A stretch of DNA of 64,000 nt from Heterobasidion occidentale (taxonomy: Eukaryota; Basidiomycota; Agaricomycetes; Russulales; Bondarzewiaceae), in assembly GCA_039111635.1 (NCBI GenBank), contig JBCAQO010000010.1, positions 992,001-1,056,000 on the forward strand, given 5' to 3'. Of this stretch, positions 15,144 to 61,578 are shown in pieces (position 1 is the first letter of the stretch; each line of letters opens with the position of its first letter). The notes below the pieces were generated by a model. That model did no database searches. It had not been told where the DNA came from and worked only from the letters and a program-made list of their open reading frames with translations. A program made the translations under genes and the position numbers.

Positions 15144-15853
15144 TTACCCCCTTTCTAGGTCCCAACTCCTGAGGGGACTACTCGCTTGAGCAGAAACGAG
15201 CTTCATCGTCATTCCACGTACAACTGCTTTCTGGCCGTCAAAATAAATTGGGATGCGTCTTCCCAATTATCACTTCGTTTTCTGGGGCGAGGACCGACCT
15301 ACGTCGTTTACAACGCCTAGGAGTTTTCCTTCTCCGTTGAGCTGTTTGATCCAGGCTTTAGCAACATCAGCCACAATATTGCGTTGCCCTCGGTGTTCTT
15401 CCTTCACCGTACGTTTTGTGTGAGTACACTCCTAGAGTCAATAGGCAGCTACTCGACCAGGGCTCCCTGGTAGGTTTGATGAGCCAGTGTCATCTGGCGA
15501 CGGTGCAGAAAGGTGTCGTGCGAATGATTATAGGATGAAATAGAAACTCGTCTGCGGATGGGTGTGTGTCGTTCTTCTTCCAAAGTGCCGAAGGCCATGT
15601 CTCAGTGTTTCCAGGATAGATCTTCATCTCCTTGATCTCCGGTATCGAGGGGGACTCCAGGTGTGTGGGTTGATCACTTTACTAAGGCTTAGGCCCACCA
15701 ACCTATCAAGAATAGACTTTTCTTGACTTGTTTTGAGTCCGGCAAGACCCCTTTGAAGATCCCTAACTCTGTCAGCCCCATACGGTGGCCCGTCCTGGTT
15801 AGAGATTGAGTGTTCGTCCAGAGTTTGTTTTTCACTAAGGGTATTGGACACGA
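15144..15853 (-). repeat. Fragment of family A 3' internal region
   Basis: Matches the segment next to the LTR in the full internal region (16475 onward), ending abruptly at GGACACGA where the variant LTR starts. Includes a GCCAG/CTGGC hairpin (15483-15498) whose stem is different but still paired in the neighbouring copy. Confidence 0.8.
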
Positions 15854-16474
15854 TGTTACGAACTGCTCGTTCAGTAACCCAAGAGTAACAGGTTCTTCCC
15901 TAGGTCGCACAATGGACTGAGTGGTGGACGAAGTCTCGACTGTATCGGGCAATGATACAGGAGGGAATAATGATTGGCTCTAAGTGACACAGTGTGAGGA
16001 CTGTGTAAGAACGAAGAGCTTCGTATTCGTAGATACGAATGAACGAAGAGAATAGACTGAAGATCCTCAGCCTATTCTATGGGCCTTATATACTGTATGG
16101 GGTATAGGGTAAGAGTCCGTGTGCTTCTCCAGGTTTCCATCCTAGGAGAGCTGTGGCCGCCGTCTTTCTCATCCGGCGCCTACTCTTGTACTTCTCCAGT
16201 CGCACTGATCCATCATGGTGCGACGAGGTGCTTACCCGTAAGCCCTAAGCCCATGACATGTGAATACGCCTCTTCATTACTGTGTGAACTCTGTGAGCCT
16301 CGTGTCCCTCCAATATAGCCTTTACCGATGTCTTGAAGAACCATCGGTCTTGTCGGCTCCTAAGGACATGCCAAATACCTTGGTGTACGCTCCGTAGTGG
16401 AGCCGCCTAGCATGTGATGCTTGATCCATCGGATAGACCGACCCCGAAGGGCCCCGATCGGTCAAGTCATAACA
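15854..16474 (-). repeat. LTR, family A variant (621 bp)
   Basis: Same termini as the other A LTRs but with a longer R/U5 insert containing a TTCGTAT/ATACGAA hairpin at 16020-16039 in place of CCTGTAT/ATACAGG. Confidence 0.92.
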
Positions 16475-19127
16475 TTACCCCCTCTTTCTAGGTCCCAACT
16501 CCTGAGGGACTACTCGCTTGAGCAGAAACGAGCTTCATCGTCATTCCACATACAATTGCTTGCTGGTCGTCAAATAGATTGGGATGCGTCTTCCCAATAT
16601 CACTTCGTTTTCTGGGGCGAGGACCGACCTACGTCGTTTACAACGCCTAGGAGTTTTCCGTCTCCGTTGAGCTGTTTGATTCAGGTTCCTAGCAACATCA
16701 GCCACAATATCGCGTCGCCTTCGGTGTTCTTCCTTCACCGCACTGTTTTGTTGCGAGTACACTCCTAGAGTCAATAGGCAGCTACTCGAAACCAGGTGCC
16801 CCCTGGTGCCTTTGTTAAACCGGTTTCCAGTCCGGTGACGATGCAGAAAGGTGTTGTGCGAATGATTATAGGATGAAATAGAAACTCGTCTGTGGATGGG
16901 TGTGTGTCGTTCTTCTTTCAAAGTGCCGAAGGCCATGTCTCAGTGTTTCCAGGATAGATCTTCATCTCCTTGATCTCCGGTATCGAGGGGGACTCCAGGT
17001 GTGTGGGTTGATCGCTTTACAAAGGCTTAGGCCCACCAACCTATCAAGAACGAACATTTTTCTTGACTTGTTTTGAGTCCGGCAAGACCCCTTTGAAGAT
17101 CCCTAACTCTGTCAGCCCCATACGGTGGCCTTGTCAGGTTAGAGATTGAGTGTTCATCCAGAGTTTGTTTTTCACTAAGGGTATTGGACACGAGGTAAGG
17201 ACTTTGAAGAATAGACTTTGAACCCCATGGTTTCTTGAATAGACCATGGTATCCACCTTGACGGTAATTATGCGGGGTCAGCGTAAGGTATGTCCTGGTA
17301 GTTTTAACGTTGTGCCGGACGTCCGTAGTTTTGCGTCTTTGCGGACGTCCGCTAGTTTATCCTTAAGTCGTTGCGGACTGAGGCTAGTTTATACATAAGT
17401 TGTTGCGGACTGCCCTGCTAGTTTATGCCAAGGTCGTTGCGGACCTATCCATCTCCCAACGTAGGAGTACCTGTAAACAAGACAGCAGGCGTTTCTGCGC
17501 GCCGGAACATTCATCGGTGATGCACATAGGGCCGTAGACCAGTTCCTCCTTCTTGACAGGGTTCCCATTGAGGAAAAGATGGTGACGGTTTATACTATAT
17601 CAAACCGGATAACTTATAGAGTCGCGAGAATAGACGTGAAGGCCTATTTTGACACGACTCACATGGCCCTGTAGACAGAAGGGCAGCTCAGTTTATCGTC
17701 ATGAAGGACGGCAACTAGTTTATAGTCATTGCGGACGTCCGCTATCGCCTGGCTTGAACCTCCCGAGCCTCGATAGATTTAATCCTCCGGGGTGAGGGTA
17801 GTTTAAGGTCATTTCGGACTAGTTGATGGTCAAGGTCGTGACCATCAACCATGACTCCTATACTTGAAGGAGTAAGTAGTTTACCGTCATTGCGGACTAT
17901 TGCAGCTGGAAGCGATAATTCCAGCTCCAATACGATCCCTAGGACGAGGGATAATAGTTTATCGTCATTGCGGACTAGATGAACATCGTGGTGTCAACAA
18001 CGATGTCGATCGACATCTCCTATGCTGAAAGGAGTGGTAGTTTAACGTCTTTGCGGACACAGCAATGCCAAAACATATCTCATGTTTGGACACTGCTCAT
18101 GACCCTGTAAGGAAAGGGTACTCCCAGTTTAACGCCATGGAGGGCGTCCGTAGTTTACCGTCATCGCGGACACCCCGTAGTTTTACATCATTGCGGATGA
18201 TCGCAACACGAGGCACGGTCCCAGTTGCCTCTTGACTGGCCCTTGAAGCGGAATCCTTGCTTCGGACTTCAAGGGTAGAATGGGCGCGCCATGGAGTAGT
18301 CGTGGCCTTGTCGGAAGGCTGGCAACCCGCTCCATGTCCCCAAACCCCTCGCACGGAATTGAACCGTGTCGACCCCATATTCTTTTACTGTAGGGCGTAT
18401 GGAATATGGAAGCGCCTCGACCTAGTCGGCAGGGTTCTGCAACAGTGGAGGCCCTCACTTCCACCGTCTGCCAGAATACAACCACGCTCCGAGGGTCTTG
18501 GTAGCTTTAGCGTCGTTCCGGACGGTAACTAGTTTATAGTCATTGTGGACCAAGCCTTTCGTAGTTTTACATCGTTGCGGATGTATATTTCTCCGTTTTG
18601 GGGTACTAATGGAGTGCGGCCATCAGTTCCTGCATCACAGATAGGGTCCCCTAATGCGGAAACGACCCTGTAAAACCGGAGATCCAAAGTGGGACGTCCA
18701 AGACACCTGTCAGACCTTGACAGCGAGGTTGATCCACCGTTCCCCAACGGCGGGTATGCAACACGATTTCCCACCAATATTCATGCATCATTCATGTACC
18801 AGTACCAAGGTTATTGTTGTGAATCCTAAGGGCCTCCTAATGCGGAAAGGGCCCTGTAAAACTGGGGATCCAAGCGGGACGCCCGATTCGCTTGTCAGAA
18901 TACCTCTTGACAACGAGAGTGTTGAATGCTTGTCCTTCATCTTGAGACCGGAGGGCTGCAACGCGAAATGGTCAGGTACTTCCCCTGCCTTCTTATCTTT
19001 TCACAGTTTAACGTCATGCAGGACGTTCGTTCCGGCGTCCTGTGCGTGAAACCGGTACCTGTGGTGCGGAGGGTCCTTTCCTCTCCGTCACCTTGTTTGT
19101 CGACAAGGGGTTTCTCGACTCCCTCGT
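16475..19127 (-). other. Structured 3' non-coding region of family A (minus copy)
   Basis: Lies between ORF3 and the 3' LTR in element orientation. In its central part (about 17,299-19,033) roughly 18 copies occur of a motif that on the plus strand reads TAGTTTA-N-GTCATTGCGGAC, i.e. in element sense a hairpin GTC-CGCAAT-GAC followed by TAAACTA. Longer inverted repeats lie between them (CCATGGT/ACCATGG, GCTGGAA/TTCCAGC, CCCTTGAAG/CTTCAAGGG and others). No convincing coding frame. The same layout is present in the plus-strand copy, where positions are listed. Confidence 0.8.
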
Positions 19128-20504
19128 CTAGTATCCTCCGCCAATGTCTCCGTAGTCCCCATATCCTTCATCCGGCCTATAATAGGGGTCGGTGTCATCG
19201 TAATTGTCACCTTCGACCTCGTCCCAGGCGTCTAGTTCCGCTCGAGTCCAGGAAGTAGTTCGCTGAGTCGGGCGCTGGCGGATTGGAGTTCTTCTACCAA
19301 TGCGTGGATGCGCTCCTTCAGCTCGATTATCTCGAGGACGGTTTGGAGTCGGCGAATCTCTTGGTTGAGTTCCTCTAGGACTGCTTTGCCTGGGTTGAAG
19401 AATGGCCCTTGTCCTGTGGCTTCCTCGTCCCTCATTCCTCCTGTACCTTGGAGGATGCTCCTCATTGCTGCCTCCTGCGTCCTGCCCGGTGGATTGTCCT
19501 GCCGATATGGGAGGAAGGATCTCTCGATTCCTTCGTGCCTGTCGTTGGACTGTAGCCCAGACATATTCTGTCTGGGTGGATGCGTCTCGACTATGTGTAG
19601 CCGGTACTGCTCTGCTAGCTTCGCTCCATGGTTGGACGCGGAATGGGTCAATCCGAACGGGATGGGCGTGGGAGGAGTGTCTTGCGTCAGTGCGCGGTAT
19701 GAGGGCCGGTAAGAGTTCCAAATTGACGAAGGAGGAGAACTCGTCCGGGTGAATGAGTAAGGCGTAAGCCCCATTATTTCCTCGGGCATACCAGGAGGCT
19801 GCTCGATGATCATCTGCATAGGCCAGAAGCCTGACCTGGTCGCTTGCGTCAGCGAGGCGTCGGGGTATGTCGTCGCTCTCGCTCCCTGGTTGCCCTGCGA
19901 AGAAGTTAGCAAGCCTTTGCAAGGCTAGCGCTGTGGCCATCTGGATTACCGCGGAGATGGTGGTGCGCTGGAGTAGTGCGTCTCCTAACCCTTCCAACTC
20001 TCCGGGGTGCAGATCTCGACTATTGGTAGGGGGCCCTCTGGTCCTGGCAGCTGATGTACCAGCCGTTGCTGGTTCTTGTACACCTGCCTCAACAATTGTA
20101 GGCGATGCCAGGTCCGAAGGGTTTCCTGGTCTTCTTCCGCCTCTCGTTTCTTGTCTTGCGTCTCCTTGAGCCAACGCCGACGTCGGTCGCGGAGGCGTTG
20201 ACGGAGCCTGCCTTCCTTCTGCTTGACGTCCTTCATCGTGCTCGTCATGAGCTCTCTCAAACCGTGGTGAGGTTCGGGAACCCGTTCGATCTTCGACGGT
20301 GAGCGCGGTTTGGTGGACAATGATTTGTACGGGAACTCCTTCCGGAGTCGTTGGGCAGCTGCTTCGGCTAGGGCGTCCAGTGTCGGGGTTGGCCACGGCC
20401 AGAATGATGTCTGGTGAGGGGTTTCTTGAAGGGGAGGAAGTAGTTCCATCATCGATGAGCATGGCACGTCCAGGGGAGTAATCAAGGGAGGAGTGGTCGG
20501 ACAT
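19128..20504 (-). CDS. Family A accessory ORF3 (458 codons), downstream of pol
   Basis: Sense-strand ORF between pol and the 3' LTR, a place where gypsy elements usually have no gene. Starts MSDHSSLDYSPGRAMLIDD. The middle is rich in R, S, T, P and G; a more folded-looking part follows (LGDALLQRTTISAVIQMATA and GAYALLIHPDEFSSFVNLEL), and it ends in an acidic/Tyr tail (DEVEGDNYDDTDPYYRPDEG). No known domain, membrane segment or signal peptide was recognised. A second frame is open over nearly the whole length with one stop (19985) and looks at least as protein-like, including a coiled-coil stretch (ELNQEIRRLQTVLEIIELKE). A TATA box sits 45-53 nt upstream, so an independent transcript is likely. 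Function unknown. Confidence 0.6.
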   Translation of the reverse strand: MSDHSSLDYSPGRAMLIDDGTTSSPSRNPSPDIILAVANPDTGRPSRSSCPTTPEGVPVQIIVHQTALTVEDRTGSRTSPRFERAHDEHDEGRQAEGRQAPSTPPRPTSALAQGDARQETRGGRRPGNPSDLASPTIVEAGVQEPATAGTSAARTRGPPTNSRDLHPGELEGLGDALLQRTTISAVIQMATALALQRLANFFAGQPGSESDDIPRRLADASDQVRLLAYADDHRAASWYARGNNGAYALLIHPDEFSSFVNLELLPALIPRTDARHSSHAHPVRIDPFRVQPWSEASRAVPATHSRDASTQTEYVWATVQRQARRNREILPPISAGQSTGQDAGGSNEEHPPRYRRNEGRGSHRTRAILQPRQSSPRGTQPRDSPTPNRPRDNRAEGAHPRIGRRTPIRQRPTQRTTSWTRAELDAWDEVEGDNYDDTDPYYRPDEGYGDYGDIGGGY

Positions 20505-20562: not shown

Positions 20563-22551
20563 CTAAAGCCTAATCGCCGCCGGTCGGGGCTTGTCTGGGT
20601 AGCTTTCGTGGAATTCACGAAGCGCCTCGTCGGCCGTATCTTTGAGGAGGGCAAAGGGTTCCCAGGTGTTATCGGCCTCGGAGTATCCGACCCACTTGAC
20701 AAGGTACTTGGTCCCTCGTCCCTGGCGCTTTGAATCTAGAATGGCCTCCACTTCATAGTGTTCTTCTTCATTCAAGATCTCCGGGGCTGGTCTGGGGAAG
20801 TTCCTTCCGTGGGCCTCTGTCTCATGATATTCTGTGAGTATGGAGGCATGAAATACCGGGTGTATCTTCCATATTTCGGGTATTTTCAACCGATAAGCTA
20901 GGGGGCCGATTCTTTCGGTCACTGAAAAGGGGCCATAGCGTCGAGGTGCCAGCTTGAATTTCGGGTGAGTCGTCCGAATGTGGGTCCCTTCTAACCAAAC
21001 TTGGGTTCCTACTTCCCACTGTGGGAGTTTCCTGTGCAGGTCCCGGTCCTTGGCGTGCTGCGCTGCTATTTGTAGACTTGCGGCCGCATCTTCTTGGACT
21101 TCCTTGATTAGCTGTAAACGTTCAGTCACTGCGGGCACCTTGGTCTCCAGAGCTGAGTCGACCGAATATGGTGGATTGAACCCATAAAGGACTTCAAACG
21201 GCGACTTCCCAGTGACGGAGTGTCTTCGGGTATTGTGGGAGAATTCTGCGAAGGGGATCAAGGCTACCCAGTTATCTTGATGGTAGTTGCAGAAAACTCG
21301 TAGGAATTGCTCGATCTCTTGGTTTACCCGTTCTGTTTCTCCGTCCGTTTGGGGGTGGTAAGCCGTGCTGAGGGCAGGGGTGATTCCCATTCCTTTCCAT
21401 AGTTCCCTTGTGAACTTTGCCGCAAATTGAGGACCTCTGTCGGACACCACTTTGGTTGGTAGTCCGTATCGTTTGAACACATTGTCCTGGAAGAGCGTCG
21501 TGGTTTCTTCGGCCGTGATTGTCTTCTTGCACGGAGTTATGACTATTCCTTTTGACAGACCTTGATCGACTACCACATTTATCGAGTCGTAGCCTCTGCT
21601 TTCCGGGAGGTCTGTTACGAAGTCGGTGGAGATGAAGCGCCAAGGGACGTTTGTGGTTTCCAGCGGTTGGATCGGTGGATGGGTCCTATGGGGAAGGTTC
21701 TTGGTAGATTGGCAGACTGCACATCCATCCACATATGCGTGTACAAATTTGGTCATGCTTGACCACCAATAATGGCGTTGGACCAATTCTAAGGTCTTTG
21801 CTCGGCCCGGGTGTCCTGTAGCCATAGTGTCATGGTGCGTTTTGACAATCATTCGTCGAAGGAGGTCGTCCTTTGGGACACATATGTAACCATCGTGTCT
21901 TGTGATGCCATCTTCATGTGTCCATTTTCCTAGGTCGCCCTTCATTGCGTTTGGTCCTTTTTCCAGTAGTTTCTTGAGGGCGACGTCAACTAGCAAATCG
22001 TGTTCCGAGCGCGAGTGTCGAATAAGGGAAAGGATGTCCGAGGATACGAGTTCCGTTGCTTTGACGTGTATACCTTCGCTTGGCTCTACCAGAGTTTCGC
22101 TGGACTCGGTGAAAAGTCTAGACGGGAGTAGAGTCTGTGCCTTGTTATCAGATTCCACCCCCTCACTAAGGTCTGGACGCCTGGACAGAGCATCGGCATG
22201 ATTCGTAGTTCCAGCCTTGTAACTGAGCTGGAAGTCAAATCGGGACAAAAACAGACTCCAGCGCGCTTGTCGCCTGGACAGGTCGCGCGCCGTCTGAAAG
22301 TGTTCTAGGTTCTTATGGTCCGTCCAGACCTCGAAGGGGTGTCGGGCGCCTTCGAGGTAGTGTTTCCAGTGCTCTAGCGCCTTGATAATGGCGAGGAGTT
22401 CACGATCATGTACGTCGTAATTCCGTTCGGCCGGTGAGAACGATCCTGAGAGGTAAGCCACGGGGTGCCAGTCATTATCAGGTCCTTCCTGTAAGAGGAC
22501 TGCACCGTATGCCGCGAGGGAAGCATCGGTAATGAGCCGGTAGGGACGCAT
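20563..22551 (-). CDS. Pol C-terminal part: RNase H, integrase, chromodomain (family A)
   Basis: An uninterrupted 662-codon frame. RNase H acidic residues: TDAS, DRELLAIIKALEHW, VWTDHKNL and NHADALSRR. Integrase: zinc-binding HHCC (HHDTMATGHPG...CAVC), catalytic core with STDFVTDLPE, VSDRGPQF and TDGETERVNQEIE (D, D, E), then a GPY/F module (RRYGPFSVTERIGPLAYRL). The C terminus is a chromodomain: YEVEAILDSKRQG, then KYLVKWVGYSEADNTWEP. The chromodomain places the element among chromoviruses, which use it to target chromatin marks. An upstream in-frame TGA (22600-22602, Arg codon in the other copy) separates it from RT. This is the best-preserved integrase of family A in the window. Confidence 0.9.
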   Translation of the reverse strand: MRPYRLITDASLAAYGAVLLQEGPDNDWHPVAYLSGSFSPAERNYDVHDRELLAIIKALEHWKHYLEGARHPFEVWTDHKNLEHFQTARDLSRRQARWSLFLSRFDFQLSYKAGTTNHADALSRRPDLSEGVESDNKAQTLLPSRLFTESSETLVEPSEGIHVKATELVSSDILSLIRHSRSEHDLLVDVALKKLLEKGPNAMKGDLGKWTHEDGITRHDGYICVPKDDLLRRMIVKTHHDTMATGHPGRAKTLELVQRHYWWSSMTKFVHAYVDGCAVCQSTKNLPHRTHPPIQPLETTNVPWRFISTDFVTDLPESRGYDSINVVVDQGLSKGIVITPCKKTITAEETTTLFQDNVFKRYGLPTKVVSDRGPQFAAKFTRELWKGMGITPALSTAYHPQTDGETERVNQEIEQFLRVFCNYHQDNWVALIPFAEFSHNTRRHSVTGKSPFEVLYGFNPPYSVDSALETKVPAVTERLQLIKEVQEDAAASLQIAAQHAKDRDLHRKLPQWEVGTQVWLEGTHIRTTHPKFKLAPRRYGPFSVTERIGPLAYRLKIPEIWKIHPVFHASILTEYHETEAHGRNFPRPAPEILNEEEHYEVEAILDSKRQGRGTKYLVKWVGYSEADNTWEPFALLKDTADEALREFHESYPDKPRPAAIRL

Positions 22552-26769: not shown

Positions 26770-28938
26770 TTACCCCCTTTCTAGGTCCCAACTCCTGAGG
26801 GGACTACTCGCTTGAGCTTCATCGTCATTCCACGTACAATTGCTTTCTGGTCGTCAAATAGATTGGGATGCGTCTCCCCAATATCACTTCGTTTTCTGGG
26901 GCGAAGACCGACCTACATCGTTTACAACGCCTAGGAGTTTTCCATCTCCGTCGAGCTGTTTGATTTGAAGTTCGGGGTATAGCCACAATACCCTGCCCCT
27001 TCTCCCGGTGTTCTTCCTTCACCGCACGTTTTGTGTGAGTACACTCCTAGAGTCAATAGGCAGCTACTCGACCAGGGCTCCCTGGTAGGTTTGATGAGCC
27101 AGTGTCATCTGGCGACAATGCAGAAAGGTGTCGTGCGAATGATTATAGGATGAAATAGAAACTCGTCTGTGGATGGATGTGTGTCGTTCTTCTTCCAAAG
27201 TGCCGAAGGCCATGCTTCAGTGTTTCCAGGATAGATCTTCATCTCCTTGATCTCCGGTATCGAGGGGGACTCCAGGTGTGTGGGTTGATCGCTTTACTAA
27301 GGCTTAGGCCCACCAACCTATCGAGGGTGAACAGCCCTCGACTTGTTTTGAGTCCGGCAAGACCCCTTTGAAGATCCCTAACTCTGTCAGCCCCATACGG
27401 TGGCCCGTCCTGGTTAGAGATTGAGTGTTTGTCCAGAGTTTGTTTTTCACAAGGGAGCGAGCATGTAGCAGCGCTCCGTGTATTGAACACGAGGTAAGGA
27501 CTTTGAAGAATAGACTTTGAACCCCATGGTCTCTTGAATAGACCATGGTATCCACCTTGACGGTAATTATGCGGGGTCAGCGTAAGGTATGTCCTGGTAG
27601 TTTAACGTCGTGCCGGACGTCCGTAGTTTTACGTCTTTGCGGACGTCCGCTAGTTTATCCTTAAGTCATTGCGGACTGAGGCTAGTTTATACATAAGTCG
27701 TTGCGGACTGCCCTGCTAGTTTATGCCAAGGTCATTGCGGACCTATCCATCTCCCAACGTAGGAGTACCTGTAAACAAGACAGCAGGCGTTTCTGCGCGC
27801 CGGAACATTCATCGGTGATGCACATAGGGCCGTAGACCAGTTCCTCCTTCTTGACAGGGTTCCCATTGAGGTAAGATGGTGACGGTTTATACTATATCAA
27901 ACCGGATAACTTATAGAGTCGCGAGAATAGACGTGAAGGCCTATTTTGACACGACTCACATGGCCCTGTAGACAGAAGGGCAGCTCAGTTTATCGTCATG
28001 AAGGACGGCAACTAGTTTATAGTCATTGCGGACGTCCGCTATCGCCTGGCTTGAACCTCCCGAGCCTCGATAGATTTAATCCTCCGGGGTGAGGGTAGTT
28101 TAAGGTCATTTCGGACTATTGCAGCTGGAAGCGGTAATTCCAGCTCCAATACGATCCCTAGGACGAGGGATAATAGTTATCGTCATTGCGGACTAGATCA
28201 ACATCGTGGCGTCAACAACGATGTCGATCGACATCCTATGCTGAAAGGAGTGGTAGTTTAACGTCTTTGCGGACGCAGCAATGCCAAAACATATCTCATG
28301 TTTGGACACTGCTCATGACCCTGTAATGAAAGGGTAGTCCCAGTTTAACGCCATGGAGGGCGTCCGTAGTTTACCGTCGTTGCGGACAGCCCGTAGTTTT
28401 ACATCATTGCGGATGATCGCAACACGAGGCACGGTCCCAGTTGCCTCTTGACTGGCCCTTGAAGCGGAATCCTTGCTTCGGACTTCAAGGGTAGAATGGG
28501 CGCGCCATGGAGTAGTCATGGCCTTGTCGAAGGACTGATAACCCGCTCCATGTCCCCAAACCCCTCGCACGGAATTGAACTGTGTCGACCCCATATTCTT
28601 TTACTGTAGGGCGTATGGAATATGGAAGCGCCTCGACCTAGTCGGCAGGGTTCTGCAACGGTGGAGGCCCTCACTTCCACCGTCTGCCAGAATACAACCA
28701 CGCTCCGAGGGTCTTGGTAGCTTTAGCGTCGTTCCGGACGGCAACTAGTTTATCGTCATTGCGGACCAAGCCTTTCGTAGTTTTACATCGTTGCGGATGT
28801 ATTTTCTCCGTTTTGGGTACTAATGGAGTGCGGCCATCAGTTCCTGCATCGCAGATAGGGTCCCCTAATGCGGAAACGACCCTGTAAAACCGGAGATCCA
28901 AAGTGGGACGTCCAAGACACCTGTCAGACCTTGACAGC
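26770..28938 (-). repeat. Partial family A 3' internal region, truncated by family B
   Basis: Repeats the LTR-adjacent region and most of the hairpin array (compare 16475-18725), ending at CCTTGACAGC where a family B LTR begins. The rest of this A copy (ORF3, pol, gag, 5' LTR) is absent from the window. Confidence 0.85.
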
Positions 28939-50921: not shown

Positions 50922-51508
50922 TGTTATGACTTGACCGATCGGGGCCCTTCGCGGCCGGTCTAACCGATGGATCAAGCATCACATGCTAGGCGGCTCCACT
51001 TACGGAGCGTACACCAAGGTATTCGGCATGTCCTTAGGAGCCGACAAGACCGATGGTTCTTCAAGACATCGGTAGAGGCTATGTGAGAGGGACATGAGGC
51101 TCACGAAGTTCACACAGTAATAAGGGAGGCATTCACATGCCATGGGCTTAGGGCTTACGGGTAAGCACCTCGTCGCACCATGATGGATCGGTGCGACTGG
51201 AGAAGTACAAGAGTAGGCGCCGATGAGAAAGACGGCGGCCACAGCTCTCCTAGGATGGAAACCTGGAGAAGCACACGGACTCTTACCCTATACCCCATAC
51301 AGTATATAAGGCCCATAGAATAGGCTGAGGATCTTCAGTCTATTCTCTTCGTTCACTACTGTCTTCCTACAGTAGAACTTTGAGCAAATCATTATTCCCT
51401 CCTGTATCAACGTCTGATACAGTCGAGACTCCGTCCGTCACTCAGTTCATTGTGCGACCTAGGGAAGAACCTGTTACTCTTGGGTTACTGAACGAGCAGT
51501 TCATAACA
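50922..51508 (+). repeat. 5' LTR, plus-strand A (587 bp)
   Basis: TGTTATGACTTG...TTCATAACA. Contains TATATAA at 51303-51309, the self-primer AGTCTATTCT at 51337-51346 (28-34 nt further, where transcription should start) and, next to it, the hairpin CTACTGT-CTTCCT-ACAGTAG (51356-51375). Confidence 0.95.
51303..51309 (+). promoter_or_regulatory. LTR TATA box, family A
   Basis: TATATAA, placed so that the transcript 5' end falls at or just before the self-primer 10-mer (51337). Drives the genomic RNA. Confidence 0.6.
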
Positions 51509-51510
51509 CT

Positions 51511-51520
51511 AGAATAGACT
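51511..51520 (+). other. Self-priming primer-binding site, family A
   Basis: AGAATAGACT, 2 nt after the LTR. Perfect 10-nt complement of the LTR segment 51337-51346; no tRNA-like PBS present. Confidence 0.72.
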
Positions 51521-51828
51521 CGCTTTTGCCCCTACCTTGCACCACACTCTGCTTGCTGCCACACTCTTTCTCACAACCCTCATCGGTGGCATAGACCCCC
51601 ACCGAAGAGAGTTACTTCACACACCCTGGAGCAAGACCTAGGCCTAGGATTTCCACCAGGCACTAGACGAACCCATAACCAACTTCGACAGAACAATCGT
51701 CCTATCCATCAAAGAGAAAATCGCTGGTATTACTCCGACACCAATCGGCCAGCACCCCCAAACTTTGATAACTGCTCGTACCGAGAAGGACGATACTTCT
51801 TCACAAGAGAAGACGGAACAGAAGCTGA

Positions 51829-53190
51829 GTGGGCTTGGGACGAAACAGCAGAAGACTGGGTAGAACCACCCCAGTACAGGAACCCCGAACCGGAAATCCC
51901 GGACACATCGGAGGAAGAAGAAGGAACATCCGAGTCCGAATCCTCGGATATTCAAACACCGATCAACACCCGAAATATTATGTCAAACCCTACAGACCCC
52001 CCGTTTCGTCAGGAAGGGGCAAGCTCAAGCTCCCTGATAATTTCGAAGGGGACCGAACACAATCACAGAAATTCATCATGAATTGCCTCCTCCTTTTCAC
52101 AGCAGAACCAGACCGATACAAGACGGATTCAGACAAAGTTTCTCTCGCTCTCTCGTGCATGAGATACGGGACGGCCGGCGTATGGGCAGAGAGCTTCCTA
52201 AAGAAGACAGTAGGGGCGACCCCGCCCAAGACCGTAGGAACTTGGGACGACTTCCTTGTCAGGTTTAAACTCCAGTTCAAGGAAACGAACCTTACGGACA
52301 AGGCCCGAAGCGCCCTCATGTCTTTCTCTCAGGGGAAGATGACGGTGGATGAATATTCAAACCAATTCATCCTTATCGCCGCCGACGCCGACATCACCGA
52401 CAGGGAACAAGTTCCTTATTTCCAGAGAGGGCTTGACCCGAGGGTCATGGACAAGATCTATGACAAAGAAACTCCGCCGAAGGACACGATCCAAGATTGG
52501 GTCAACACTGCCTGTGAAATAGACGGACGCTTGAGAGCCCGAAGTGCTCAAAAGGCGATCCTAGCCAACTCCACCTCATTCCGAAGCGACTTCCTCAATC
52601 GTTTTCACCTCCAACCAGCTCGCCGCTATAACTCTACCACCGCTCCTCGAAGAATGAACAACCAGGTGGTTGACATGGACATTGACGCCTCTCGCAAAAG
52701 AGACGCCAATCGGAACAAGCGTGTATACAATGGCAAGAGACCTGCTCCCTTCTCCTGCTACAATTGCGGAAAACCAGGGCACGGGATAGCTGATTGTCCT
52801 TCCCCTCGTAGAGGCGTTCCCCCGTCTCGAGGAAATTCGTGCAAGTCGGTGGGCAGAGGAGGTAGACGAACTCGCGCTGCAGACATGGAGGATGAAGACG
52901 AGCAAGAATCCCCGGTGGGAAACGATGCGCGACTACATCGAGGATTGGAGGAGGGGAGTTCTCATGGCCACCACCGTCGGGTACCACAACCTGGTAATTC
53001 GGTGGAACGTGAGGACCCTGCCGAGAGGGGAGGATCACGCCAGAGCGATGGAGAGCGCTACGTACCGCCTAACGGACGACGAAGCAACGGACCCATCAGT
53101 GATATTAATGGCGTCCGAGCGCTCTTCCAAGGAGTAGGGAAGGCCGAGCAAAGGCAGATGTTGGTGGATCTGGCAGAGGATTTTTCCTGA
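51829..53190 (+). CDS. Gag polyprotein, plus-strand A (453 codons)
   Basis: Structural protein that packages element RNA. Capsid-like region: KLPDNFEGDRTQSQKFIMNC, CMRYGTAGVWAESFLKK, GKMTVDEYSNQFILIAADAD, VPYFQRGLDPRVMDKIYD. One CCHC zinc knuckle, CYNCGKPGHGIADC, near residue 310. The first 60 or so residues of this frame are probably not native: another frame just upstream reads an acidic, protein-like EEEEGTSESESSDI ending NIMSNPTDPP, as in the minus copy, so a 1-nt change has joined two frames. Native translation likely begins further upstream near 51,620. The C-terminal part after the knuckle is basic and disordered, ending MLVDLAEDFS. Confidence 0.85.
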   Translation: MGLGRNSRRLGRTTPVQEPRTGNPGHIGGRRRNIRVRILGYSNTDQHPKYYVKPYRPPVSSGRGKLKLPDNFEGDRTQSQKFIMNCLLLFTAEPDRYKTDSDKVSLALSCMRYGTAGVWAESFLKKTVGATPPKTVGTWDDFLVRFKLQFKETNLTDKARSALMSFSQGKMTVDEYSNQFILIAADADITDREQVPYFQRGLDPRVMDKIYDKETPPKDTIQDWVNTACEIDGRLRARSAQKAILANSTSFRSDFLNRFHLQPARRYNSTTAPRRMNNQVVDMDIDASRKRDANRNKRVYNGKRPAPFSCYNCGKPGHGIADCPSPRRGVPPSRGNSCKSVGRGGRRTRAADMEDEDEQESPVGNDARLHRGLEEGSSHGHHRRVPQPGNSVEREDPAERGGSRQSDGERYVPPNGRRSNGPISDINGVRALFQGVGKAEQRQMLVDLAEDFS

Positions 53191-54381
53191 CCTCTCCTTC
53201 ACCAGCCGAAGAGAGAGGGTCAAGGAAACTCGAGTATGATTCCCCGTCACATATTCGGATCGGAGCAATGAACAGTCACATTATTACCCCCATTCGACTT
53301 GACGTGCGATTAACAACTCGAGGAAGAAGCGCTGGAGCCAGAGCCGCCATCGACTCAGCATGCGAAGGGATTTTGGTAAATGAGGGTGGGTACAGAAGCA
53401 CAACCTTCCCACCTATCCTTTAAACCGCCCCATCCGCGTCCGCAACGTCGATGACACCATCAACAAGGCAGGCCTCATTCGACGAGGCCTGGACGCAAAT
53501 CTCACCGTCAAGGATAGACGGGGGAGAACTCACACTGAACGCGTCCAAATGTTCATCACCAATCTAGGGAAAGACGACATGCTCCTAGGAACGGATTGGC
53601 TGAAATACCACGACCCCTCCATCGGGTGGAGGCGCCGTGAGGTACACTTTGATCGTTGCCCCAGAGATTGCCAACAACCGAATGGGTTTACCAAGGCAAG
53701 GGAAGAGCCTACCAAGAAGGCATGGCTAGCGAAACTACGCGGTGACAAGGTTCCTCAGCGGACAAAACCGCATCTTGTCTCAGAACCGGTAGGACCTTCG
53801 TGGACGTGGACTAAAGAACAATGGAGCCAAGTACCCACGAAGGAATGGAAAATTCGGTTCATGGAATTACTCGAGCACAAATCCCGACAACGCAAAGCTT
53901 GGGAATGGCTCGAAGAACAAGTAGCCGAAAGGAAGGAACGCCGGCAAGCTCAGCAGAAAGCGGCCCAGGGCGAAGCTTCAGGAAAAGTCGCTGAAGAAGC
54001 GCAAACACCGTCTGACTCCTCCGCAATGGATAGCGCAGGAGAACCCGTCATTAGGAAGGTAGCCCCAGAACCCTCGGGTTCGCAAGCTTTGACGAAGACC
54101 TGGAGGAAGAAATCGACACCACCGACTTGAAAGGTCGGGTGCCGACAGAATATCATTCTTACCTCGACATCTTCAGCGAACGACGATCGCAGAGGCTTCC
54201 CCAACATACAGTATGGGACCACGCTATAAACCTCAAACCGTCTTTTGTACCCCAGGCCCCGCGGATATTTCCCTTGAGCCCGGAAAAGCATGACGAGCTA
54301 GGGAGATTCGTCAAAGAGCACCTTTCCAGAGGAACAATACGTCGGTCAACAGCACATAGCGCGGCCTCTTTCTTTTCGTAA
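53191..54381 (+). pseudogene. Protease and linker, plus-strand A
   Basis: Retropepsin-like IDSACEGILVNE near 53345-53400 (DSA in place of DSG, as in the minus copy), interrupted just after by a frameshift. Then TNLGKDDMLLGTDWLKYHDP (53549 onward), a charged linker (EEQVAERKERRQAQQ) and HSYLDIFSERRSQRLPQHT leading to RT. The upstream frame stops at SAASFFS (TAA 54379-54381), one base out of phase with RT. Confidence 0.75.
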
Positions 54382-55592
54382 GCAAGAAAGATGGGAAGCT
54401 CCGTCCGGTACAAGACTATCGCCACCTTAACGAACACACTATTCGAGACGTCACCCCCCTGCCATTAATCCAAGAACTATTGGATATCATTAAAGGCGCA
54501 ACGGTGTTCTCGAAGCTCGATGTTCGGTGGGGATATAACAACGTGCGCATCAAGAAGGGAGACGAATCCAAGGCGGCCTTCGTCACACCCTTGGGACTTT
54601 TCGAGCCAACGGTGATGTTCTTTGGGCTCTGTAACTCCCCAGGAACCTTCCAAGCCATGATGAACATGATCTTCCAAGAACTCATCCTGGCCCGGAAGAT
54701 AGCGGTATATATGGACGACATCCTCATCTTCACGAAGACCACAGCGGAACACATTGTGATTCTTCGGCGAGTCCTCCAAATCCTGCGCGACAACGATCTC
54801 TACCTCAAACCAGAGAAGTGCGAGTTCCACAAGGAAAAGTTGAACTACCTTGGGTACACGATCTCAAAGGACCACGTCGCTATGGAAGACTCGAAGATTG
54901 AAGCTATCCAGGAATGGCCCACTCCCCGCACAGTTCGCGACATCCGCTCTTTCTTAGGCTTAGGGAACTTCTACCGACGATTCATTGATAAATTCTCTCT
55001 GATCGCTCGGCCCCTGCATGACCTCACGAAGAAGGATGTGAAATGGGACTGGACCACGGAGTGCCAACAGGCGTTTGATCGACTGAAGAAAACCTTCACC
55101 AGCCGACCCGTCCTGTTGTACCCTGACCCGATGCGCCCTTACCGGCTTGTTACCGACGCCTCCCTTGCAGCATATGGTGCAGTCCTCTTACAGGAAGGAC
55201 CTGATAATGACTGGCACCCTGTTGCATACCTCTCAGGATCGTTCTCACCGGCCGAACGAAATTACGACATGCATGATCGCGAACTCCTCGCCATCATCAA
55301 GGCACTGGAACACTGGAAACACTACCTCGAAGGCGCTCGACACCCCTTTGAAGTCTGGACGGACCATAAAAACCTAGAACACTTTAAAACGGCGCGCGAC
55401 CTGTCAAGGCGACAAGCGCGCTGGAGTCTGTTTTTGTCCCGATTTGACTTCCAGCTCAGTTACAAAGCTGGAACTACTAATCATGCGGATGCTCTGTCCA
55501 GGCGTCCAGACCTTAGTGAGGGGTGGAATCTGATAACAAGGCACAGACTCTACTCCCGTCCAGACTTTTCACCGAGTCCAGCGAAACTCTAG
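54379..55592 (+). CDS. Reverse transcriptase-RNase H, plus-strand A
   Basis: Open from [20 protein letters not shown] through the palm ([15 protein letters not shown], catalytic YMDD in IAVYMDDILIFTK), thumb (FLGLGNFYRRFIDKFSLIAR) and RNase H (VTDASLAAYGAVLL, HDRELLAIIKALEHW, VWTDHKNLEHF, NHADALSRR). All catalytic acidic residues are present, so this is the only fully intact RT/RNase H in the window. It needs a -1 shift from the protease frame to be made. A 1-nt deletion at about 55520 ends the frame early (RRPDLSEGWNL). Confidence 0.9.
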
Positions 55593-57110
55593 TAGAACCA
55601 AGCGAAGGCATACACGTCAAAACAACAGAACTCGTATCCTCCGACATCCTCTCCCTTATTCGACACTCGCGCTCAGAACACGATTTGCTGGTTGATGTCG
55701 CCCTCAAAAAACTGCTGGAAAAAGGTCCAAACGCAATGAAGGGCGACCTAGGAAAATGGACACATGAAGAGGGCATCACAAGGCGCGACGGTTACATATG
55801 CGTCCCAAAGGACGACCTCCTTCGACGAATGGTTGTCAAAACGCACCATGACACTATGGCTACAGGACACCCGGGCCGAGCAAAGACCTTAGAATTGGTC
55901 CACGCCATTACTGGTGGTCAAGCATGACCAAATTTGTACACGCATATGTGGATGGATGTGCAGTTTGCCAATCTACCAAGAACCTTCCCCATAGGACCCA
56001 TCCACCGATCCAACCGTTGGAAACCACAAACGTCCCTTGGCGCTTTATCTCCACCGACTTCGTGACGGACCTCCCGGAAAGCAGAGGCTACGACTCGATC
56101 AACGTGGTAGTCGATCAGGGTCTGTCAAAGGAATAGTCATAACCCCGTGCAAGAAGACAATCACAGCCGAAGAACCACGACGCTCTTCCAGGACAATGTG
56201 TTCAAACGATATGGTTTACCAACCAAAGTGGTGTCCGACAGAGGTCCTCAATTTGCGGCAAAGTTCACAAGGGAACTATGGAAAGGAATGGGAATCACCC
56301 CTGCCCTCAGCACGGCCTATCACCCCCAAACGGACGGAGAAACAGAACGGTAAACCAAGAGATCGAGCAATTCCTGCGAGTTTTCTGCAACTACCATCAA
56401 GATAACTGGGTAGACTTGATCCCCTTCGCAGAATTCTCCCACAACACCCGAAGACACTCCGCCACTGGGAAGTCGCCGTTTGAAGTCCTTTACGGGTTCA
56501 ACCACCATATTCGGTCGACTCAGCTCTGGAGACCAAGGTGCCCGCAGTAACTGAACGTTTGCGACTAATCAAAGAAGTCCAAGAGGATGCGGCCGCAAGT
56601 CTACAAATAGCAGCGCAGCACGCCAAGGACCGGGACCTACACAGGAAACTTCCGCAATGGGAAGTAGGAACCCAAGTTTGGTTAGAAGGAACCCATATTC
56701 GGACAACTCATCCGAAATTCAAGCTGGCACCTAGACGCTATGGCCCCTTTTCAGTGACTGAAAGAATCGGTCCTCTGGCTTATCGGTTAGAAATACCCGA
56801 AACATGGAAGATACACCCGGTGTTTCATGCCTCCATACTCACGAAGTATCACGAGACAGAGGCCCACGGGAGGAACTTCCCCAGACCTGCCCCAGAGATC
56901 CTGAATGAAGAAGAGCACTACGAAGTGGAGGCCATTCTAGATTCAAGACGCCAGGGACGAGGGACCAAGTACCTTGTCAAGTGGGTCGGATACTCCGAGG
57001 CCGATAACACTTGGGAACCCTTTGCCCTCCTCAAAGGTACGGCCGACGAGGCGCTTCGTGAATTCCACGAAAGCTACCCAGACACCCGACCAGCGGCGAT
57101 TAGGCTTTAG
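55523..57110 (+). pseudogene. Integrase and chromodomain, plus-strand A
   Basis: Same protein as the intact minus-copy integrase but split by 1-nt losses near 55905, 56130, 56175 and 56350. HHCC and DDE motifs are recognisable across frames (CAVCQSTKN, STDFVTDLPE, VSDRGPQF, TDGETER). From 56538 a clean frame gives the GPF module and the chromodomain (YEVEAILDSRRQG, KYLVKWVGYSEADNTWEP). Confidence 0.85.
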
Positions 57111-57166
57111 AAAGAATAAAAAAGGGAGGCATTCCCCCTCTTCAAAGCAAGAATCCTCCCCAACAC

Positions 57167-58550
57167 ATGTCCAACCACTCCTCCCTGGAATACTCCCCTG
57201 AACGTGCCATGCTCATCGATGACGGAACTACCTCCTCCCCTTCAAGAAACCCCTCGCCAGACATCATTCTGGCCGTGGCCAACCCCGACACTGGACGCCC
57301 TAGCCGAGGCAGCCGCCCAACGACACCAGGAGGAGTTCCAGTACAAATCAGTGTCCACCAAACCGCGCTCACCGTCGAAGATCGAACGGGTTCCCGAGCC
57401 TCACCACGGTTTGAGAGAGCTCATGACGAGCACAATGAAGGACGTCAAGCAGAAGGAAGGCATGCTCCGTCAACGCCTCCGCGACCGACGTCAGCGTTGG
57501 CTCAAAGAGACGCAAGACAGGAAACGAGAGGCGGAAGAAGACCAGGAAACCCTTCGGACCTGGCATCGCCTACAACTGTTGAGGCAGGTGTACAAGAACC
57601 AGCAGCGGCTGGTACATCAGCTGCCAGGACCAGAGGGCCCCCTACCGGTAGTCGAGATCTGCACCCCGGAGAGTTGGAAGGACTAGGAGACGCCCTACTC
57701 CAACGCACCACCATCTCCGCGGTAATTCAGATGGCCACAGCGCTGGCCTTACAAAGGCTCGCTAACTTCTTCGCAGGGCAACCAGGAAGCGAGAACGATG
57801 ACATACCCCGACGCCTCGCTGACGCGAGCGACCAGGTCAGGCTTCTGGCCTATGCAGACGATCATAGAGCCGCCTCCTGGTACGCCCGAGGAAATAATGG
57901 GGCTTACGCCCTACTCATTCATCCGGACGAGTTCTCCTCCTTCATCAATCTGGAGCTCCTACCCGCCCTCATCTCGCGCAACCGACACAGGACATTCAAG
58001 TCACGCCCATCCCGTTCGGACTGACCCATTTCCGCGTCCAACCATGGAGCGAAGCTAGCAAGAGCAGTACAGGCTACAAGTAGTCCTCGAGACGCATCCA
58101 CCCAGACCGAATATGTCTGGGCTATACGGTCCAACGACAGGCACGAAGGGACCGAGAGGCCCTTCCTCCCATATCGGCAGGACAATCCCCGGGCAGGACG
58201 CAGGAGCAGCAATGAGGAGCGTCCTCCAAGGTAACAGGAGGAATGAGGGCGAGGGCCAGAGAACAAGGGTGACCCCTCAACCCAGGCGAGGCAGTCCTAG
58301 TCAGAACTCGACCAAGAGATTCGTCGACTCCAAACCGTCCTCGAGATAATCGAGTTGAAGGAGCGCATCCACACATTGGTAGAAGAACTCCAGTCCGCCA
58401 GCGCCCAACTCAGCGGACTACTTCCTGGACTCAAGCGGAACTAGACGCCTGGGACGAGGTCGAAGGCGATAACTACGACGACGTCGACCCCTACTACAGA
58501 CCAGACGAAGGGTACGGAGATTATGGAGACATTGGCGGGGGATACTAAAC
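57167..58550 (+). pseudogene. ORF3 of plus-strand A, truncated
   Basis: Frame from MSNHSSLEYSPERAMLIDD runs 285 codons and then shifts near 57,985 by a small indel. Downstream pieces matching the minus-copy ORF3 include a coiled-coil part near 58,350 and the acidic Tyr-rich end (DPYYRPDEGYGDYGD) near 58,490-58,540. The alternative frame 57204-57686 (160 codons, protein-like and Lys/Arg/Gln-rich) is also conserved, with the same stop as in the minus copy. Confidence 0.6.
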
Positions 58551-58559
58551 CAGGGAGTT

Positions 58560-60235
58560 GAGGAACCCCGGGTTTTAACATGATGACGGAGAGGAAAGGA
58601 CCCTCCGCATCACAGGTACCGGTTTCACGCACAGGACGCCGGAACGAACGTCCTGCATGACGTTAATGTGAAAAGATAAGGCAGGGGAAGTACCTGACCA
58701 TTTCGCGTTGCAGCCCGGTCTCAAGATGAAGGACAAGCATTCAACACTCTCGTTGTCAAGAGGTATTCTGACAAGCGAATCGGGCGTCCCGCTTGGATCC
58801 CCAGTTTTTACAGGGCCCTTTCCGCATTAGGAGGCCCTTAGGATTCACAACATAACCGACTGGTACATGAATGATGCATGAATATTGGTGGGAAATCGTG
58901 TTGCATACCCACCGTTGGGGAACGGTGGACCAACCTCGCTGTCAAGGTCTGACAGGTGTCTTGGGACGTCCCACTTTGGATCTCCAGTTTTTACAGGGTC
59001 TTTTCCGCATTAGGGGACCCTATCTGCGATGCAGGAACTGATGGCCGCACTCCATTAGTACCCAAAACGGAGAAATTACATCCGCAACGATGTAAAAACT
59101 ACGAAAGGCTTGGTCCGCAATGACGATAAACTAGTTACCGTCCGGAACGACGCTAAAGCTACCAAGACCCTCGGAGCGTGGTTGCATTCTGACAGACGGT
59201 GGAAGTGAGGGCCTCCACCGTTGCAGAACCCTGCCGACTAGGTCGAGGCGCTTCCATATTCCATACGCCCTACAGTAAAAGAATATGGGGTCGACACGGT
59301 TCAATTCCGTGCGAGGGGTTTGGGGACATGGAGCGGGTTGTCAGTCTTCCGACGACAAAGACCACAACTACTCCATGGTGCGCCCATTCTACCCTTGAAG
59401 TCCGAAGCAAGGATTCCGCTTCAAGGGCCAGTCAAGAGGCAACTGGGACCGTGCCTCGTGTTGCGATTCATCCGCAACGATGTAAAACTACGCGCGTCCA
59501 CAAAGACGATAAACTACCGCTCCTTTCAGCATAGGAGATGTCGATCAACATCGTTGTTGACGCCACGATGTTGATCTAGTCCGCAATGACGATAAACTAT
59601 TTACTCCTTCAAGGATAGGAGACGTGATTGATGGTCACGACCTTGACCATCAATTAGTCCGAAATGACCTTAAACTACCCTCACCCCGGAGGATTAAATC
59701 TATCGAGGCTCGGGAGGTTCAAGCCAGGCGATAGCGGACGTCCGCAATGACTATAAACTAGTTGCCGTCCTTCATGACGATAAACTGAGCTGCCCTTCTG
59801 TCTACAGGGCCGTGTGAGTCGTGTCAAAATAGACTTTCACGTCTATTCTCGCGACTCTATAAGTTATCCGGTTTGATATAGTATAAACCGTCACCATCTT
59901 GCCTCAATGGGAACCCTGTCAAGATGGCTGTACTTGGTCTAGGGCCCTATGTGCATCACCGATGAATGTTCCGGCGCACAGAAATGGTCTACCATTTTTA
60001 TAGGTACTCCTACGTTGGAAGATGGATAGGTCCGCAATGACCTTGGCATAAACTAGCAGGGCAGTCCGCAACGACTTACGTATAAACTAGCCTCAGTCCG
60101 CAACGACTTAAGGATAAAACTAGCCGACGTCCGCAAAGACGCAAAACTACGAACGTCCGGCACGACGTTAAACTACCAGGACATACCTTACGCTGACCCC
60201 GCATAATTACCGTCAAGGTGGATACCATGGTCTAT
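58560..60235 (+). other. Hairpin array in the 3' non-coding region of family A
   Basis: At least 15 copies of one motif: stem of 3-7 bp, a loop of exactly 6 nt (mostly CGCAAY), closing stem, then TAAACTA within 0-8 nt. Stem 5' sides start at 58647, 59076, 59113, 59139, 59469, 59495, 59579, 59657, 59740, 59766, 60028, 60063, 60095, 60128 and 60152. Stem sequences differ but stay paired: TTACATC/GATGTAA, AGGTC/GACCT, AGTC/GACT, CGTC/GACG, AACGTC/GACGTT. Between them are larger inverted repeats, for example 12 bp at 59543-59576 and 10 bp at 59627-59654. All motif copies have the same orientation. No coding frame explains the region. Confidence 0.8.
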
Positions 60236-60979
60236 TCAAGAAACCATGGGGTTCAAATCTATTCTTCAAAGTCCTTACCTCGTGTCCAATACCCTTAGTG
60301 AAAAACAAACTCTGGACGAACACTCAATCTCTAACCTGACAAGGCCACCGTATGGGGCTGACAGAGTTAGGGATCTTCAAAGGGGTCTTGCCGGACTCAA
60401 GACAAGTCAAGAGAAATGTTCGCTCTTGATAGGTTGGTGGGCCTAAGCCTTAGTAAAGCGATCAACCCACACCCTGGAGTCCCCCTCGATACGGAGATCA
60501 AGGAGATGAAGATCTATCCTGGAAACACTGAGACATGGCCTTCGGCACTTTGGAAGAAGAAAGACACACACCCATCCACAGACGAGTTTCTATTTCATCC
60601 TATAATCATTCGCACAACACCTTTCTGCATCGTCGCCAGATGACACTGGCTTATCAAACCTACCAGGGAGCCCTGGTCGAGTAGCTGCCTATTGACTCTA
60701 GGAGCGTACTCACACAAAACGTACGGTGAAGGAAGAACACCGAGGAGAAACACAGTATTGTGGCTGATACTGCAGGACTTCAAATCAAACAGCTCAACGG
60801 AGACGGAAAACTCCTAGGCGTTGTAAACGACGTAGGTCGGTCTTCGCCCCAGAAAACGAAGTGATATTGGGAAGACGCATCCCAATCTATTTTGACGACC
60901 AGCAAAGCAATTGTCCGTGGAATGACGATGAAGCTCGTTTCTGCTCAAGCGAGTAGTCCCCTCAGGAGTTGGGACCTAG
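60236..60979 (+). other. Terminal 3' internal region of family A with ORF-like stretch
   Basis: Contains a protein-like frame (ATG 60506: MKIYPGNTETWPSALWKKKD, then FLFHPIIIRTTPFCIV, stop near 60643) and, in another frame, ENEVILGRRIPIYFDDQQSN near 60850. Frames and stops differ between the copies, and a GCCAG/CTGGC hairpin with swapped stems overlaps it. I cannot decide between a decayed fourth ORF and structured non-coding RNA. Confidence 0.35.
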
Positions 60980-60990
60980 AAAGGGGGTAA
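60980..60990 (+). other. Polypurine tract, family A
   Basis: AAAGGGGGTAA directly before the 3' LTR; plus-strand primer site. Confidence 0.85.
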
Positions 60991-61578
60991 TGTTATGACT
61001 TGACCGATCGGGGCCCTTCGCGGCCGGTCTAACCGATGGATCAAGCATCACATGCTAGGCGGCTCCACTTACGGAGCGTACACCAAGGTATTCGGCATGT
61101 CCTTAGGAGCCGACAAGACCGATGGTTCTTCAAGACATCGGTAGAGGCTATGTGAGAGGGACATGAGGCTCACGAAGTTCACACAGTAATAAGGAGGCGG
61201 CATTCACATGCCATGGGCTTAGGGCTTACGGTAAGCACCTCGTCGCACCATGATGGATCGGTGCGACTGGAGAAGTACAAGAGTAGGCGCCGATGAGAAA
61301 GACGGCGGCCACAGCTCTCCTAGGATGGAAACCTGGAGAAGCACACGGACTCTTACCCTATACCCCATACAGTATATAAGGCCCATAGAATAGGCTGAGG
61401 ATCTTCAGTCTATTCTCTTCGTTCACTACTGTCTTCCTACAGTAGAACTTTGAGCAAATCATTATTCCCTCCTGTATCAACGTCTGATACAGTCGAGACT
61501 CCGTCCGTCACTCAGTTCATTGTGCGACCTAGGGAAGAACCTGTTACTCTTGGGTTACTGAACGAGCAGTTCATAACA
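60991..61578 (+). repeat. 3' LTR, plus-strand A (588 bp)
   Basis: Nearly identical to the 5' LTR of the same element. Followed by the AAGCG target duplication. Confidence 0.95.

Follow-up and report, generated by a model that had tools for sequence, protein, structure and literature searches.

Arrays of coremin-like RNA units in the 3′ UTR of a fungal Ty3/gypsy retrotransposon: a probable serial Xrn1 roadblock

Why does the 3′ untranslated region (UTR) of a fungal retrotransposon hold a long series of small hairpins that share a loop and an unpaired tail? The question is raised by a 64-kb window, the whole stretch of DNA analysed here, from Heterobasidion occidentale, in which a first-pass annotation had described about 15 such hairpins in a plus-strand element and about 18 in a minus-strand element. 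Both counts were confirmed (15 and 18, decayed copies included), as was the observation itself; of the interpretation then given, the RNA structures were supported, and no support was found for their proposed role as docking sites for a protein such as Gag or ORF3.

Identity of the unit and its carrier elements

Each unit consists of a 3-bp stem (GTC/GAC), a 6-nt loop, a spacer, mostly of 2 nt but of 1 or 7 nt in certain classes, and the tail TAAACTA. Read as RNA, GUC[CGCAAY]GAC-NN-UAAACUA, it can be assigned with good support from the letters to the coremin motif (xrRNAC), which halts the 5′–3′ exonuclease Xrn1 one nucleotide before hp1 in RNA viruses (PMC10520033). As described there, coremin comprises hp1 (GUC/GAC), a loop of the form YGAD or, as hexaloop, YGNNAD, a spacer ending in AAACUA, and hp2 of any sequence; CGCAAU and CGAAAU loops resisted Xrn1 in vitro and CGAAAC did not; chrysoviruses contain natural motifs with a C-ending loop (PMC10520033). 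The earlier statement that no equivalent had been described therefore does not stand, since the loop, the closing stem and the UAAACUA tail are all those of coremin (PMC10520033) and one array unit is identical to a plant-virus motif. This unit (L066, 3,944–3,963, minus strand) reads GTCCGAAGACGTTAAACTAC and matches the beet-virus motif GUCCGAAGACGUUAAACUAC at 20 of 20 nt; it has a CGAA tetraloop, with a CTCC...GGAG hairpin behind it. In other elements, units whose flanks resemble those of the L066 unit (class 1) carry a CGCGAA or CGCAAA hexaloop in place of the tetraloop, and the two look like forms of one and the same unit; a hexaloop and a tetraloop at one unit of this genome correspond to the loop equivalence reported in PMC10520033.

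The agreement with the published rule was then scored part by part. The YGNNAD hexaloop rule is fitted by 148 of 351 units (359 regex matches less 8 with a CACAAG loop); 118 units have the form YGNNAC, and loop position 2 is U in 69, A in 15 and C in one. The spacer ending in AAACUA is present, a partly circular result as it was used in the search. Of the 341 units left after removal of 11 of 352 regex matches (loops CACAAG, TTTGGC and TTCATC; coding or chance), 92% have a hairpin that begins no more than 8 nt past the tail. The corresponding figures are 79% for 979 randomly chosen array positions and 75% for shuffles, a modest hp2 enrichment because the whole UTR is rich in hairpins. Furthermore, neighbouring units 26–34 nt apart can share parts, since the hp1 of the next unit often serves as hp2.

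In the window, TCCGCAAYGA occurs 26 times against 0.25 expected under dinucleotide shuffling (0 of 100 shuffles reached 26); 24 copies lie inside three arrays and the other two (37,439 and 47,842) in the ORF of another element. The strict unit GTCCGCAAYGACN{0,8}TAAACTA gave 547 + 572 = 1,119 matches in the assembly and none on either strand with the reversed control. Therefore, a chance origin of the units is excluded. Rfam gave no gathering-level match in the window or in loci L067 and L075.

The features of the window are collected in Table 1. The two LTRs of the plus-strand element are 99.3% identical and have TG...CA ends, and its pol and ORF3 frames are interrupted and open only in part. 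If the ORF3 stop is positioned from its counterpart in the minus-strand element, the 3′ UTR extends for ~2.4 kb to the 3′ LTR and contains the array. Pooled over the plus- and minus-strand elements, the carrier has the Gag, RT–RNase H–integrase with chromodomain, and TG...CA LTRs of a Ty3/gypsy chromovirus. A Pfam search with the 458-aa ORF3 of the minus-strand element returned no match; its relatives were nine proteins at E ≤ 0.001, of which the six named ones are from Heterobasidion irregulare.

In the plus-strand array, the relaxed pattern found 14 units, and a decayed CTGCAT copy near 58,650, recognised by reading, completes the 15. A third array, absent from the first-pass annotation, is interrupted at 28,939 by an LTR of a second Ty3 family. 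This family (28,939–49,741) shows an inverted arrangement, with LTRs of about 830 bp and a 466-aa ORF adjoining the LTR that contains a zinc-knuckle-like CX2CX4HX4C; the pattern search found no coremin units in it. At 14,556–17,193 on the minus strand, an LTR and the adjoining 3′ end are duplicated in tandem (14,556–15,853 and 15,854–17,193; 91% identity). A tRNA-like stretch near 59,270–59,320 (GGTTCAATTCC) was dismissed, as ARAGORN (bacterial code) called no tRNA in the window.

Table 1. Positions of the array-bearing elements and of selected units in the window
Feature	Position	Strand	Remark
Ty3/gypsy element with array	50,922–61,578	+	64-kb window, contig C10, 45 Mb assembly
5′ LTR of plus-strand element (TGTTATGA...TTCATAACA)	50,922–51,508	+	LTR comparison
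Gag ORF, plus-strand element	51,829–53,190	+	Retrotrans_gag, zinc knuckle
RT/RNase H part of pol, plus-strand element	54,480–55,592	+	
ORF3 portion, plus-strand element	57,167–58,024	+	Open frame shorter than in minus-strand element
Array of 15 coremin-like units, 3′ UTR of plus-strand Ty3 element	58,640–60,175	+	
Unit GTC[CGCAAT]GAC-GA-TAAACTA	59,113–59,133	+	Hairpin of next unit can act as hp2
Unit GTC[CGCAAT]GAC-GA-TAAACTA	59,579–59,622	+	Followed by dedicated hp2 (CTCCT...AGGAG)
Unit with CGAAAT loop	59,657–59,695	+	Followed by hp2 CCTC...GAGG
Canonical CGCAAT unit, then CTTCAT unit with TAAACTG tail	59,740–59,815	+	Followed by hp2 GCCCT...AGGGC
Five units in close succession	60,030–60,175	+	Three with 7-nt spacer between GAC and TAAA
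3′ LTR of plus-strand element	60,991–61,578	+	Purine tract (AGAAAGGGGG) directly before
Array of 18 units, minus-strand element	17,299–19,033	-	16 matched by pattern, stems broken in the other 2
ORF3, minus-strand element	19,128–20,504	-	458 aa
RNase H–integrase–chromodomain ORF, minus-strand element	20,563–22,551	-	Chromovirus type of Ty3/gypsy
Third array, 16 units	27,598–28,798	-	15 by pattern, 1 decayed with tail one base shorter

Strand, conservation and covariation of the arrays

The first 100 of the 1,119 strict matches fell into 25 clusters on contigs C1 and C2 (loci L065–L089), all of which were retrieved. Each array contains 7 to 17 pattern-counted units, which are confined to one strand; the lone off-strand regex match, in L085, has a TTCATC loop and does not qualify as a unit. 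Hairpins with a 6-nt loop preceding the tail numbered 319 on the array strand and 0 on the opposite strand. ORF3 lies on the array strand in 24 of the 25 loci, with the array downstream of it in all 24, and INT lies on that strand in 22; neither was found within the retrieved DNA of L085, and L067 and L080 additionally carry part of ORF3 or INT on the opposite strand. A same-strand LTR of the carrier family is present in 22 of the 25 pieces, L066 and L077 having only an opposite-strand LTR and L078 none. These results bear out the sense orientation and the 3′ UTR position claimed in the first-pass annotation; it had named units of mixed orientation, or lying beyond transcribed element regions, as evidence against its reading, and neither was seen in these 25 arrays. 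In addition, six arrays on C3–C6, chosen from the list of A..T matches (see below) for two matches about 385 nt apart, were scored for unit strand, and all 84 units lay on one strand per array.

The main loops among 352 raw matches are CGCAAT (83), CGCAAC (71), CTTCAT (24), CTGCAT (22), CGAAAT (20), CGGAAC (18), CGGCAC (17), CGCAAA (17), CTCCAT (12) and CGCGAA (11). Flank similarity sorts the matches into 16 classes of at least two members that recur across elements, two of them (CACAAG and TTTGGC) being non-units. CpG-type transitions at loop positions 1–2 (CGCAAT to TGCAAT or CACAAT) were also noticed in unit copies, which suggests methylation- or RIP-like decay.

The compensated stems proposed in the first-pass annotation were evaluated by counts and shuffles; unit copies share descent, and the statistics ignore this kinship. 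Pair 1 is C-G in 351 of 351 units, as demanded by the search, and pair 2 is T-A in 341 and C-G in 10, Watson–Crick pairing being demanded there too. Pair 3, on which the search made no demand, is paired in 343 of 351 units when G-U is included (GC 298, AT 33, GU 12, mismatch 8). Genome-wide, the doubly changed A..T form gave 282 matches, compared with 20 for A..C and 17 for G..T, the half-changed forms, and 1,119 for G..C under a stricter tail. Twelve of the 20 A..C matches are another recurring word, ATCCGCAAYGACATGRTAAA, found at 12 places on 8 contigs. Pair 4 is formed in 243 of 351 units, the constant stem being just 3 bp; 93 of 131 distinct units are paired, against 62.8 in shuffles (0 of 1,000 shuffles), and after collapse to 21 stem/loop types 18 are paired against 11.1 (1 of 1,000). 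At the type level, pair 3 is mildly above shuffles (21 vs. 19.3; 20 of 1,000). Among the distinct units, pair 5 is at chance (60 of 131 vs. 55.2), and pair 6 is above shuffles (84 of 131 vs. 68.5) though pair 5 is not, and was given no weight. Within these limits, the RNA-level structure with compensated stems was supported. A DNA word or recombination motif is disfavoured by the compensated stems and by the constant strand of the units with respect to the element. Plain thermodynamic folding was set aside as weak proof of structure, as hp1 was predicted to form with a probability of 0.5 or more in no more than 195 of the 351 units.

Conservation of TC..GA (or a Watson–Crick pair 2) and of TAAA..CT is partly selected, since the search pattern demanded them; it was therefore scored on homologous columns in other elements, which lessens this circularity. 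Between diverged elements (pairwise identity < 0.85), mismatch was 0.062 in the tail, 0.031 at loop A5 and 0.025–0.042 at pair 2, compared with 0.245 at the remaining UTR positions. Moreover, eight core positions were jointly intact in 2,567 of 3,137 non-independent comparisons (82%), against about 11% if they were neutral and independent. Loop positions 2 and 6 showed mismatches of 0.245 and 0.244, equal to the UTR background (0.300 and 0.420 with CpG-type sites masked), indicating that the G at loop position 2 required by the published rule is not specially kept across units.

Loop position 2 was found to vary together with the last base of the tail. Among the 351 units, the combinations were G-A in 265, U-G in 64, A-A in 15, U-A in 5, G-G in one and C-U in one, so that TAAACTG tails occur in 64 of 69 U2 units and TAAACTA tails in 265 of 266 G2 units. 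The six C3–C6 arrays gave the same picture, with G-A in 70 of 70 and U-G in 14 of 14 of their 84 units. This suggests, as a lead and not as proof, that the base at loop position 2 touches the final base of the spacer, G meeting A and U meeting G, and such a contact would account for the variability of position 2. Alternatively, the link between U2 and the G tail may stem from one ancestral change spread by copying.

A probable Xrn1 roadblock and its rivals

Judged from these sequences, the array is probably a serial coremin-type Xrn1 roadblock in the 3′ UTR of a chromodomain Ty3/gypsy element that leaves stable 3′ RNA fragments; the reading rests on the units, their orientation, position, conservation and compensated stems, and their agreement with a fold that others have assayed in vitro. 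Element RNA, once decapped, would be degraded by Xrn1 from 5′ to 3′ through gag, pol and ORF3, until the enzyme stops just before the hp1 of the first competent unit; an Xrn1 molecule slipping past one unit would meet another about 26 to 430 nt on. The predicted product is a set of nested stable 5′-truncated RNAs, each comprising some 0.8 to 2.3 kb of 3′ UTR and U3-R, and imperfect blocks in series could shield the final ~0.8 kb and U3-R almost completely and yield a ladder of fragments. The benefit to the element would most likely lie in a decoy for decay or RNAi, or in retaining Xrn1 and the P-body machinery on element RNA. Two XRN_N loci and several Piwi loci are present in the host genome, which makes Xrn1 and RNAi both plausible targets. 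Coremin stalls Xrn1 in S. cerevisiae (PMC5869530), and in yeast Xrn1 is needed for the gathering of Ty3 RNA and protein into retrosomes (PMC4589538).

Several observations speak against the roadblock. Fewer than half of the units (148 of 351) fit YGNNAD, and 118 loops end in C, a class whose member CGAAAC was not resistant in vitro (PMC10520033); some spacers are 7 nt long, loop positions 2 and 6 are no better conserved than the UTR background, and the predicted hp1 probability is low in many units, as given above. A 5′-truncated RNA cannot act as a full genome, which makes a benefit less evident.

A narrower form of the same reading is a tentative possibility of lesser probability: only the canonical units, about 3–7 per element, would stall Xrn1, and the U-loop, C-ending and long-spacer units would be decayed, serve mainly as hp2 for their neighbours, or be otherwise employed. 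Consistent with this, each of the 25 loci has 3–7 YGNNAD units, and several non-canonical units lie directly behind a canonical one. However, the non-canonical classes retain the same tail, stem and A5 across elements, and the matching tail change of the U-loop units (64 of 69) suggests a working variant.

The docking array of the first-pass annotation, in which the hairpins are repeated sites for Gag or ORF3 in packaging or localisation and have no exonuclease role, is unlikely. It would suit many sense-strand hairpins in the element's own RNA, and the virus protein p14 has been reported to bind coremin RNA (PMC13431473); but the stem, loop A5 and the unpaired tail are conserved jointly, as the tested Xrn1 block requires, the 20/20 match points the same way, and docking could coexist with Xrn1 blocking rather than be the sole role.

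Stalling of scanning or read-through ribosomes by the units is very improbable: scanning ribosomes were stalled by coremin in vitro (PMC10520033), but the array lies past the last long ORF, and the longest M-started frames between array and LTR are 75 and 131 aa in two elements of the window. The 131-aa frame was also considered as a product of the stable fragment and rejected, as similar sequence occurs in 24 of 26 pieces but is broken by stop codons within the aligned parts in 18 of these; the frame is unbroken over its full length in two pieces (L069 and L071), with no sign of a conserved gene. Least probable of all is a neutral, functionless expansion of a short repeat within the element, a reading favoured by the variable copy number (7 to 17 by pattern over the 25 loci) and by the internal repeats that LTR elements often acquire, and opposed by core conservation far above the flanks, compensated stems, irregular spacing, differing flanks and the identity to a functional virus motif.

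If the roadblock reading is true, a retrotransposon has adopted, or independently evolved, a viral block to RNA decay and multiplied it into a serial barrier, and LTR elements would be linked to the Xrn1 and P-body biology that matters for yeast Ty3. The genome also supplies numerous natural variants of this fold, described as structurally unsolved in PMC10520033 (2023), and the loop–tail covariation offers a direct clue to a tertiary contact. Among the matches listed in the open-access literature, the natural exonuclease-resistant RNAs were all viral, and none concerned a retrotransposon carrier of coremin, arrays of up to 18 units or loop–spacer covariation.

The motif in phages and bacteria, and comparison with known systems

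The exact 21-mer GTCCGCAAYGACNNTAAACTA was found in 64 IMG/VR stretches (66 matches; L001–L064), the reversed control giving none there, and in 35 bacterial genome stretches (L099–L133). By record title and taxonomy, we take the bacterial stretches to be 29 Bacillota and 6 Patescibacteria. In IMG/VR, the swapped stems ATC/GAT and GTC/GAT gave no matches, so that pair 3 is invariant in the phage motif; a tetraloop form, searched without a control, gave 9 matches. Pair 4 is complementary in 75 of 82 distinct phage and bacterial contexts, against 52.5 in shuffles (0 of 2,000). Only 5 of the 82 lie within an ATG-started ORF of at least 100 aa, and 36 have such an ORF starting no more than 100 nt downstream. 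Examined by eye, the downstream stretch often has no obvious hp2, and these motifs may therefore work differently. Two contexts have near relatives in Lactobacillus and Synechococcus phages, and a third query returned no near relative. In four of the 82 contexts (L006, L035, L043 and L047), the motif begins 1–2 nt past the end of a tRNA called by ARAGORN, and in L035 a Lacto-phage-1 RNA lies about 400 nt upstream of the motif.

A flaviviral xrRNA of a different fold blocks RNase J1 in vitro (PMC5760640), and it is possible that the phage and bacterial 21-mer is an mRNA leader element that blocks RNase J. The wider proposal, that coremin is one exonuclease-blocking fold used across domains, in plant and fungal RNA viruses, in serial arrays of up to 18 units in a fungal LTR retrotransposon that makes stable 3′ RNAs of its own and, against RNase J, in phage and bacterial transcripts, with loop position 2 touching the final base of the spacer, is evenly poised between acceptance and rejection. 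Among the matches listed in the open-access literature, none dealt by title or abstract with xrRNAs in retrotransposons or coremin in phages, and in PMC10520033 the word starts 'bacteri', 'phage' and 'transposon' and the word 'retrotransposon' are absent.

Compared with the viral hexaloop coremin of PMC10520033, found among others in hypo- and chrysoviruses, the units are alike in the GUC/GAC hp1, the CGCAAU and CGAAAU loops, the AAACUA-ending spacer, an hp2 defined by structure only and the frequent 3′ UTR position. They differ in their carrier, a genomic LTR retrotransposon with 7–18 units in series, in the many C-ending and U2 loops, in the class with a 7-nt spacer and in the tail G that accompanies U2 loops (PMC10520033). 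The tetraloop coremin of BNYVV RNA3 (PMC5869530) is the sequence to which the L066 unit is identical throughout, and a hairpin follows both; there, however, a single motif stabilises one ncRNA, whereas in the retrotransposon it is one among many units. Tandem flavivirus xrRNAs likewise place more than one Xrn1 block in series, but they form an unrelated, larger ring fold and occur as a pair, in contrast to the about 15 units here (PMC5760640). Finally, yeast Ty3 is likewise a fungal Ty3/gypsy LTR element, and Xrn1 and P-body factors take part in its life cycle (PMC4589538).
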